A stretch of 64,000 bases of DNA from Parasutterella excrementihominis YIT 11859 (GTDB taxonomy: Bacteria; Pseudomonadota; Gammaproteobacteria; Burkholderiales; Burkholderiaceae_F): the NCBI RefSeq assembly GCF_000205025.1, contig NZ_GL883745.1, positions 1-64,000 on the forward strand. Reading direction: 5' to 3'. Made by a program: the position numbers and the translations under genes. Below the pieces are notes generated by a model. The model had not been told where the DNA came from. It saw nothing but the letters and a program-made list of their open reading frames with translations, and ran no database searches. This document shows, in pieces, positions 1-1,289 of this stretch (position 1 is the first letter of the stretch; every line of letters starts with the position of its first letter).

Positions 1-370
1 GCCAGCCTTTGCGCTTGGTGCGGATGCGGTTGCCGAATCTCGGTGTACGGTAGCGCGTTTTGCGGTTACGGCGGCACTGTCGTAACGCACGACGAGCAGA
101 GAGCAGATCAGAGACGTCCTGACGGAGTTCGACTTCGGATGCATAAAGTTCAGCCTTTTCCGTTGATGCGGAAAGGCCGACATGTTTGTATCCGGCATCA
201 ACACCCAGACTTACCGGCTGTTTGGTCTCGCCTGTCGCAATCGTCAGCTGAATGGTGAAAGGCGTACGCCTTGCCACAATAGCTTTCTTCTCTTTAAGCA
301 GATGTCGCGCTTTTGCCGGTGAACAGGGCATCAGCGGTTTTCCGCGTTTGTTTAGGACAAATACTCTCAA
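1..370 (-). CDS. iscB: IscB-type RNA-guided nuclease, N-terminal part (cut by window edge)
   Basis: Only the first 123 codons are in the window; the rest lies left of position 1. Seen in the translation: an N-terminal PLMP domain (GKPLMPCSPAKAR, residues about 10-22), a segment KEKKAIVARRTPFTIQL, the RuvC-I catalytic Asp in LGVDAGYKHVG (about residues 56-66), then an arginine-rich bridge helix (RRALRQCRRNRKTRYR). This order is diagnostic of the IscB/IsrB family, Cas9-like nucleases carried by IS200/IS605-related elements that cut DNA guided by an omega-RNA. The start is TTG at 370-368: an in-frame TAA lies two codons upstream and GAGGAG sits about seven bases before it. Whether the HNH domain (IscB) or its absence (IsrB) follows cannot be seen. 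No transposase is in the window. Confidence 0.9.
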   Translation of the reverse strand, partial: MRVFVLNKRGKPLMPCSPAKARHLLKEKKAIVARRTPFTIQLTIATGETKQPVSLGVDAGYKHVGLSASTEKAELYASEVELRQDVSDLLSARRALRQCRRNRKTRYRTPRFGNRIRTKRKGW

Positions 371-612
371 GTTTTATCTCCTCGGTCTTTCGACCGGTTG
401 TGATCCTTCGCCAATGTTGGAAGGGGTTTCAAGCCGACAGCACCGCTCCTACCTCTCAGAGCTTTTAACCATCGGCCGCAGAGCGCGGGACTAGGATCTG
501 CATCCCGAGGTGCTTATGGATTCCCGACCAACGTAGTCCGCCAAATGACGGCCTGAGGCTAGTCAACTAGAGGCTTTTTCAAGCCTCGGCCTTAAGGCCG
601 AAGTAGTTGACT
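371..612 (-). ncRNA. omega-RNA (HEARO-like) for the IscB nuclease
   Basis: A gene-free stretch directly upstream of iscB on the same strand is rich in stems, which is where the guide RNA scaffold of IscB systems is encoded. Seen: a perfect 9-bp closing stem 561-569/604-612 enclosing two hairpins (570-576/581-587 and the palindrome at 587-600), and, just before the nuclease ribosome site, a 5-bp stem with a GAAA loop (383-387/392-396). The middle segment with the GGGAATCC and CTCGGGATGCAG blocks resembles what I recall of HEARO RNAs, which is memory and not a search. The guide would be the sequence 5' of the closing stem, at about 613-630 in plus coordinates. Exact ends are estimated. Confidence 0.75.
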
Positions 613-761
613 CGAAAATTTCAGTTAAGAAGAGATTCAGGAATTATAGTGAAGTCACTTCGCCGCCCAAAGTATGCACATAAATAAGGGATACAGCGTC
701 TGAACAATTCTCGCCCATATATACTGAATTTAAGGAATTGAGTGACCATGAGGAGCAGAAA
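613..761. promoter_or_regulatory. Intergenic region: omega-RNA guide/element boundary and promoter of the next gene
   Basis: Non-coding. The part next to 612 should hold the omega-RNA guide and the end of the mobile element. On the plus strand a TATACT -10-like hexamer at 720-725 precedes the gene starting at 762; no good -35 is visible. AGGAG at 751-755 is the ribosome site for the ATG at 762. Confidence 0.3.
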
Positions 762-1289
762 ATGCTTACCTTTCAACATCTGAAGCGATACACGGCGATC
801 TTCTGTTTTGCCGGAGTGGTTTCAATGCCGTCACTGGCCGGCGTGCATGTTGATGTCAACATCGGTGTGGGTTCCCCCGGATATTATGGGGTGCTTCCGC
901 TCCAAGGCGTTACTCCCTCCCTCTGGAATGCCAACCCGATCGTCGCAATCGGAGCTGCGCTCGCAGGCGCTCCGATTTACCTAACGGTTCCTGATAAGCA
1001 TCGTCGCCATTGGAAACGTTACTGCGCCGAGTACGGAGCGTGCGGTGTTCCGGTGTATTTCGTCAGACGCGGCTGGTACAACAACTACTATGGACACGCA
1101 GCTCCCCCGCCTCCTCCTCCGGGCCCTGGGTTCATGCCTCCTCCCCCACACCATGCCGCCCCGCCCCCTCCGCCGAGAGAATACGGCGGGCCAAGACACT
1201 TTAAAGATCATGGTTGGAAACATCGGCCGCCAGGTCACGATTGGGACGGTCACGGACACGGCCATAAGAAAAAGCACCACAAAGATTAA
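762..1289 (+). CDS. Exported Pro/His-rich protein of unknown function
   Basis: A 175-residue protein. The ATG at 762 is chosen because AGGAG lies six bases before it and it gives a clean signal peptide (a hydrophobic stretch ending PSLAG near residue 27); a TTG at 738 in frame is less likely. The mature part has a conserved-looking block with YCAEYGACGVPVYFVRRGWY, a motif I associate with small periplasmic proteins of betaproteobacteria, followed by a low-complexity tail of proline runs and many histidines (GHGHGHKKKHHKD end). Function is unknown. The His-rich tail could bind Ni, Zn or Cu, but this is inference from composition only. It is transcribed away from the IscB element. Confidence 0.7.
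   Translation: MLTFQHLKRYTAIFCFAGVVSMPSLAGVHVDVNIGVGSPGYYGVLPLQGVTPSLWNANPIVAIGAALAGAPIYLTVPDKHRRHWKRYCAEYGACGVPVYFVRRGWYNNYYGHAAPPPPPPGPGFMPPPPHHAAPPPPPREYGGPRHFKDHGWKHRPPGHDWDGHGHGHKKKHHKD

Follow-up and report, generated by a model that had tools for sequence, protein, structure and literature searches.

How an RNA-guided nuclease element comes to lie at the left edge of the window, the 64,000 nucleotides of contig NZ_GL883745.1 (positions 1 to 64,000) of Parasutterella excrementihominis YIT 11859 analysed here, and how the gene beside it could tolerate such a neighbor, are the questions raised by this locus. IscB proteins are RNA-guided DNA cutters related to the ancestor of Cas9, and an earlier note had read the N-terminal part of one, starting at a TTG, on the minus strand of the window, with the DNA for its omega-RNA directly upstream. 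We confirmed that window positions 1-611 (minus strand) are the left part of an IscB/omega-RNA element, and found that its relatives lie at start codons more often than the available sites would predict. The arrangement is probably that of an IS200/IS605-type IscB element parked between the ribosome-binding site and the start codon of a host gene, with the leader of that gene serving as guide, its start codon as target-adjacent motif (TAM), and a substitute ribosome-binding site supplied by the element. Below, G000 denotes the source genome and other G numbers related genomes, while C stands for contig and L for a locus stretch. The features of the window copy are:

2 to 370, minus strand: first 123 codons of iscB (PLMP domain, RuvC-I, Arg-rich bridge helix), from a TTG start, the gene being cut by the contig edge
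371 to 396, minus strand: iscB leader, between the omega-RNA match and the TTG
378 to 383, minus strand: Shine-Dalgarno-like GAGGAG of iscB, 7 nucleotides before the TTG, read from the sequence
397 to 611, minus strand: omega-RNA (HEARO, Rfam RF02033), with 611 as both its 5' end and the element's left end, which other copies share
611/612: left junction between element and host DNA, where similarity between copies ends
612 to 628, minus strand: predicted guide segment from host DNA (leader of an M48 peptidase gene), placed by its position relative to the left end and with its length taken by analogy with OgeuIscB
612 to 737, minus strand: host intergenic DNA, by synteny with G001 and G002 the probable 5' leader of the M48 peptidase gene
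643 to 648, minus strand: TATAAT-like box, by eye only
G000:C74:40/41, outside the window: probable right junction, placed by synteny and followed by the M48 peptidase gene's ATGA

The window open reading frame (ORF; 2-370, minus strand, 123 amino acids, open at the contig edge) matched both PF14239 (RRXRR, 2.2e-43) and the NCBIfam guided_IscB model (NF040563, 3.6e-45), with 154.4 bits falling below the whole-protein cut-off of 175 because only the first 123 of 314 model positions are present. In an Rfam scan of the 64-kb window, HEARO was the sole match above gathering, covering the full model (1-211) at 397-611 (minus strand), directly upstream of iscB, with 129.2 bits compared to a gathering score of 83. 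Folding of 371-630 (minus strand; z = -2.66, none of 200 shuffles as stable) reproduced the nested hairpins and the 9-bp closing stem described in the earlier note. The protein and RNA profiles therefore agree on a compact IscB/omega-RNA (OMEGA) system, as the note had proposed, with two adjustments: the omega-RNA stops at 397, leaving 371-396 as an iscB leader with its GAGGAG, and the guide, rightly placed in flanking DNA, belongs at about 612-628 rather than 613-630.

Position 1 of the window is base 1 of contig C72 in a draft assembly of 2.83 Mb and 93 contigs, and because the ORF could not be extended in place, full-length sister copies were used instead. Over residues 1-123 the window fragment shares 93% identity with the C91 copy. 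Both C91 and C81 encode intact IscBs of 427 amino acids (357.7 and 341.7 bits against the NF040563 cut-off of 175), and an alignment of the C91 protein with the solved IscB 11hr, in two stretches, extends from the PLMP domain through RuvC-III, with an HNH domain inserted between RuvC-II and RuvC-III, beyond the point where the window copy is cut. The possibility that the ORF was a fragment lacking RuvC-II/III beside an RNA unlike HEARO is thus contradicted. Three copies of the element, about 1.53 kb long (omega-RNA, iscB, right-end hairpin), possess both ends (C91, C81 and C57, the last with an in-frame stop and Ns), and the other iscB pieces in the genome are 88-93% identical to the C91 protein. 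Six places have a left end only, all at contig ends (C72, C63, C65, the end of C81, C47 and C18), and six have a right end only, five at contig ends (C73, C20, C3, C7 and C74) and one inside a contig (C27). The nine left ends imply approximately nine copies, which broke the assembly. All five HEARO matches in the genome were over the cut-off.

The right junctions of these elements share a motif. All nine in the source genome are followed by ATGA, and 20 of 20 loci in G013, printed unfiltered, read ...TTTCT|ATGA after the iscB stop. Family-wide, 55 right junctions in 54 of 65 loci comprised 46 ATGA and 9 ATGG, a count conditional on right-end patterns that were derived from these copies and demanded NTG after the end; the 11 loci without a right end are L128, L135, L141, L145, L146, L148-L150, L152, L153, and L156. 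An ORF of at least 60 amino acids begins at the junction ATG in 7 of 9 cases in the source genome, 16 of 20 in G013, 5 of 6 in G062 (one of seven rows was excluded for Ns after the junction, and a row with Ns in the left flank was counted as a miss), 4 of 5 in G057, and 5 of 5 in named metagenome-assembled genomes (five of 11 loci had such an end, the other six being without it or cut). The remaining sets gave 1/3 (L142-L144), 1/2 (viral contigs, two junctions out of four loci), and 3/4 (distant clade). Four right ends with a Shine-Dalgarno (SD) sequence found later in G013 included three before ORFs of at least 332 amino acids and one before 25, for a total of 19/24.

These ORFs appear to be genuine genes read from their proper starts. 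Pfam domains were found in 20 of 20 downstream proteins tested, from 42 ORFs listed, and matches begin near residue 1 (aminotransferase 4-347, response regulator 4-112, epimerase 4-227); some of these genes are presumably LepB, SerC, LolC, and NtrC. When the flanks were joined across the element, restoring the order of ribosome-binding site and ATG, 30 of 37 close-clade sites had an ORF of at least 60 amino acids preceded by at most 70 open codons, compared to 251 of 1759 control ATGA sites in the same four genomes; one of four distant-clade sites passed. Sister genomes were aligned to the lolC-like site of G013: eight match in one piece across the joint, and a ninth matches in two. Of eight sequences compared at this site, the six in readable orientation (L179 and L185 were not) have ATG, GTG, or TTG at the column of the G013 ATG, with base-level precision limited by the 69-82% identity of the sisters there.

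An element that splits a ribosome-binding site from its start codon should leave something resembling that site in the last 20 nucleotides before its left end. Across 31 start-type sites, mean anti-SD energy was -5.4 kcal/mol at -20 to -1, compared to -1.7 and -2.9 in two windows upstream (Wilcoxon p = 0.0024 against -60 to -41), and an SD-like 4-mer was present in 19 of 31 left flanks compared to 7 and 4 of 31 in the upstream windows, being absent from the other 12. In 11 other sites (one row with an N in the right flank), the 4-mer occurred once, against two and one upstream. Joined flanks such as gataaggaggataagaa|ATGAAG (L068), aaaggagaatccc|ATGAAA (L132), and attaggagcagtt|ATGAAT (L009) illustrate the pattern.

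For the window copy, the right junction was sought through synteny. G001 and G002 both carry a divergent M48 peptidase gene upstream of the counterpart of window position 738, and in the source genome this gene stands at the beginning of contig C74, immediately behind an IscB right end. The three N-termini align at the same start (MNSAAAFE in the source genome, MNYSSAFE in G001, MSNAQCFE in G002). The window copy therefore most likely sits directly before the M48 start codon with the leader of that gene as its guide, a pairing of C72 with C74 that rests on synteny rather than assembly and that was made, among contig ends, for this copy only. A 12-mer, TTTCGAATGAAT, formed by the joined C72/C74 flanks and also found in G002, had been considered as proof of the exact joint and was dropped, as it is not at the homologous position. 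A search of the genome with the window copy's guide, the only one used, did not find an exact match to guide plus ATGA; the best matches were three places with two mismatches, one being the element's own left end, and at up to three mismatches there were 19 matches compared to 7 for a reversed control pattern. The suggestion that the present site is no longer targeted accords with this result.

The right end has a structure of its own. Most members of the close clade carry GAAAGGAGG or a similar sequence there, followed by a hairpin with an internal loop, 7-9 nucleotides, and the ATG, so that the SD sequence, AAGGAGG, lies at approximately -56 from the ATG. The hairpin is conserved by covariation: among 23 sequences, both partners vary in 13 of the 14 base pairs, and 89.1% of cells are paired compared to 37-44% when the alignment is slid. 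Elements without the SD were at start codons by both tests (ORF length and joined site) in 1 of 7 cases, compared to 30 of 34 with it (p = 0.0003), and by ORF length alone in 4 of 8 compared to 38 of 46 (p = 0.06). The SD-less set comprises L143, L144, L105, L147, L151, L154, and L155, with L065 (weak SD) in addition; a mixed count (2/8, p = 0.002) was superseded by these separate counts. In G013, nine further matches consist of hairpin and linker only, eight of them beside Y1 transposase genes, and one such end (L166) is followed by what we read as tnpA and then a tnpB-like gene. Since the hairpin is common to IscB elements and TnpA-side ends, it represents the transposon end, and the SD part is peculiar to the IscB elements. 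The hairpin would then also serve the transposase. A looser hairpin search in 21 further IscB loci found none in 20 and one in L150, not before a long ORF, and the combination of SD and hairpin looks clade-specific. In L053 (1760-1833, contig C27), a solo right end of about 74 nucleotides (SD, hairpin, and linker), without omega-RNA or iscB, stands directly before an MBL-fold gene and is possibly its only ribosome-binding site now.

Taken together, these data suggest the following course of events. A Y1 transposase acting in trans would move the element to an ATG(A/G) target, where it would land between the SD of a host gene and its start codon. The upstream host leader would become the guide, expressed from the host promoter, and ATGA, the start codon plus one base, would be the motif read by IscB. 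Whenever the empty site was re-formed by joining leader to ATGA, IscB would cut it and the element would be copied back. The right end would allow the host gene to be translated again, through AAGGAGG at approximately -56, a looped-out hairpin, and a linker of 7-9 nucleotides to the ATG, and translation of iscB ending nearby may help. The insertion mode fits the IS200/IS605 family, in that ATG(A/G) is confined to the right junction and not repeated in the left flanks of the sites compared, and a subterminal hairpin is present at the right end. For TnpB, PMC11870625 describes both a TAM identical to the transposase target and protection of the insertion site by the nuclease.

Several observations weigh against this proposal. 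Besides the NTG demanded by the right-end patterns, the left flank of the window copy has no clear SD, and the excess at starts relative to tolerated sites does not reach significance in the source genome by itself (7/9, P = 0.15). No intact typical TnpA was found in the source genome, a draft of 93 contigs. A distance of about 56 nucleotides from SD to ATG works only with the hairpin looped out, and synonymous-codon controls for nucleotide-level selection on the right-end SD gave 0.09-0.64 in seven elements, so that the SD could be plain iscB coding. Lastly, of the nine G013 TnpA-side ends, which lack an SD, four precede ORFs of at least 60 amino acids (one has exactly 60), compared to 19 of 24 IscB elements (p = 0.09), so that these ends are no more than a suggestive control for the SD.

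The last two points would also fit an ordinary IscB transposon whose transposase cuts at ATGA or ATGG, with starts over-represented as tolerated ATGR sites and the right-end SD a functionless piece of coding sequence. The published IsrB TAMs (NTGA, NTG, and NTGG) and the rule for TnpB that TAM equals target lend this explanation further support, as does the finding that 37 of 67 tolerated ATGA sites in the window are near gene starts. Tolerated sites, taken as those between genes or in the opening 30 codons of a gene by crude calling, are the relevant comparison because insertions inside genes would be purged. Even so, 32 of 40 junctions in four genomes were at starts against a mean of 35% expected from tolerated sites (P = 9e-9; by genome, 1e-5 in G013, 0.006 in G062, and 0.016 in G057), bearing in mind that the null was ATGA-only although 6 of 40 junctions are ATGG, that genes were called greedily by ORF length, and that copies in the same genome share history. 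The SD-less elements, mostly off starts by both tests, argue in the same direction, although ORF length alone is weak. Furthermore, genes whose products have signal-peptidase, Mfd, and FtsX/MacB-type domains are among those with an element, and their translation presumably survives. On balance we consider the ordinary transposon unlikely, if a serious contender, and retain the element parked ahead of start codons as the better account.

If the start codon serves as TAM, the nuclease should bear some trace of the base that follows. In 37 IscB proteins (four distant rows added to the near-full-length ones; many rows from G013 are near-identical), a single column, corresponding to residue 375 of the C91 protein, distinguished ATGA from ATGG elements at a level of 80% or more. 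The 30 ATGA proteins have Ser (28), Thr (1), or a gap (1) there, and the seven ATGG proteins Arg (6) or Lys (1). As judged by eye without a tree, the change arose at least three times (the G057/G062 sub-clade, L067, and L155). According to PMC9581776, Arg323 of DtIsrB reads G3 of the TAM and Gln326 reads A4, with Gln326Arg accepting G. Arg372 and position 375 of IscB are likewise three apart, a suggestive likeness rather than an alignment, and the distant clade has three extra residues between positions 372 and 375. These findings support the view that the right-flank ATG(A/G) acts as TAM of these IscBs.

A broader proposal would be that a Sutterella-type IscB clade has specialized for start codons. 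Target and TAM would both be ATG plus A or G, the leader guide would usually contain an SD, and the right end would be a portable ribosome-binding site, making insertion near-neutral even before important genes. Solo right ends would remain as permanent ribosome-binding sites, and Ser375 to Arg or Lys would retune the motif from ATGA to ATGG. We put this forward tentatively, as a generalization that could fall either way.

How the elements move bears on a further alternative, in which the family is decayed and immobile, its transposase-less relics kept by drift. The stop and Ns in C57, the solo right end in C27, and the lack of an intact typical Y1 transposase would all be expected of such relics. 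The earlier note had suggested a search for tnpA and element ends; both ends were found, but no tnpA lies within the copies examined, and elsewhere in the genome there is only a frame-broken Y1 transposase gene in C34 (G000:C34:23893-24248, L062), beside an intact ORF of 452 amino acids on the opposite strand that is tnpB-like by eye, and a weak partial match in a 252-amino-acid frame in C62. Against decay stand the two intact 427-amino-acid copies, the high identity of the other pieces to C91, the nine left ends, and the G013 transposase genes beside the same end hairpin, and the transposase may simply be missing from the draft assembly. We regard decay as improbable. Still less plausible, and in our view very improbable, is a domesticated regulator in which IscB with its host-leader guide binds or cuts host gene start regions to control them, for although the guide is the leader of the following gene, the element's own insertion destroys that target, an exact other target was not found for the window copy's guide, and the nuclease motifs are kept in the C91 copy.

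Much of this machinery is known: IscB, the omega-RNA, the left-flank guide, and the IsrB TAMs. As in OgeuIscB and other OMEGA systems, the protein has PLMP, RuvC, bridge helix, HNH, and C-terminal regions and an upstream omega-RNA with a 5' guide. OgeuIscB uses a guide of 16-17 nucleotides and reads NNRR (PMC9640706), while the elements described here are multicopy and often at start codons, have an SD and hairpin at the right end, and would read ATGA or ATGG as judged by their junctions. The TAMs of IsrB (DtIsrB and BbIsrB), NTGA, NTG, and NTGG in PMC9581776, resemble ATG(A/G), but IsrB lacks HNH, and the term "start codon" is absent from that paper. The nine G013 ends that share the hairpin and the ATGA (TCAT) target resemble tnpA-tnpB elements of the IS200/IS605 family, which differ in having tnpA instead of omega-RNA and iscB, the hairpin end ahead of tnpA, and no SD before the hairpin. 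IStrons, too, are mobile elements equipped with a device for leaving the host gene unharmed (PMC4227781); they splice themselves out of RNA, whereas the device here would be a substitute ribosome-binding site. Residence at start codons, the leader as guide, the right-end SD with hairpin, and the residue 375 switch were not found in the literature searched, which did not reach the founding papers. HEARO elements are said to integrate at ATGA or GTGA.

IscB matches at E of 1e-30 or below occurred in 17 of 67 genomes of the family, with 27 in G013 (not all separate copies). In a sample of the order, 9 of 399 genomes had matches at E of 1e-40 or below, and identities of at least 67% were confined to three genomes of this family. 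The named relatives, from which the taxonomy of the clade was inferred, are Succinivibrionaceae (75%), a Sutterella sp. metagenome-assembled genome (67%), and Erysipelotrichaceae (55 and 52%), and goat jejunum or deer rectum is named in four of the six closest records. If the proposal is true, a target present in most genes together with a replacement ribosome-binding site would explain how RNA-guided transposons reach at least 20 copies per genome without killing the host. Homing would become testable, the guides being known gene leaders and the TAMs start codons, and a one-residue change at 375 would be predicted to alter the motif of a 427-amino-acid nuclease.

Some minor observations were also made. 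The protein at window positions 738-1289, adjoining the element, is proline/histidine-rich and apparently secreted, with a shorter homologue in G001; tblastn did not find one in the G002 stretch. The TTTCGAATGAAT occurrence in G002:C18 (L050, about 1310-1321) has its ATG 14 nucleotides before the M48 start codon, not at it. A weak, degenerate left-end remnant of 42 nucleotides (83%) lies at G000:C67:37430 (L043, about 1501-1542), approximately 0.3 kb upstream of a gene, tnpB-like by eye, that is broken into two overlapping frames. In a Succinivibrionaceae metagenome-assembled genome, a second HEARO RNA (L063:7649-7880, 101 bits) lies about 3.7 kb downstream of the first. L131 (G062:C4:7571-10523) holds a head-to-tail pair of IscB elements, separated by about 0.1 kb that includes an N run and each followed by ATGG. 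Finally, in contig C3 (L054:63-359) the right end stands directly before a probable addiction-module antidote gene (PF21716), where the element may alter antitoxin expression.
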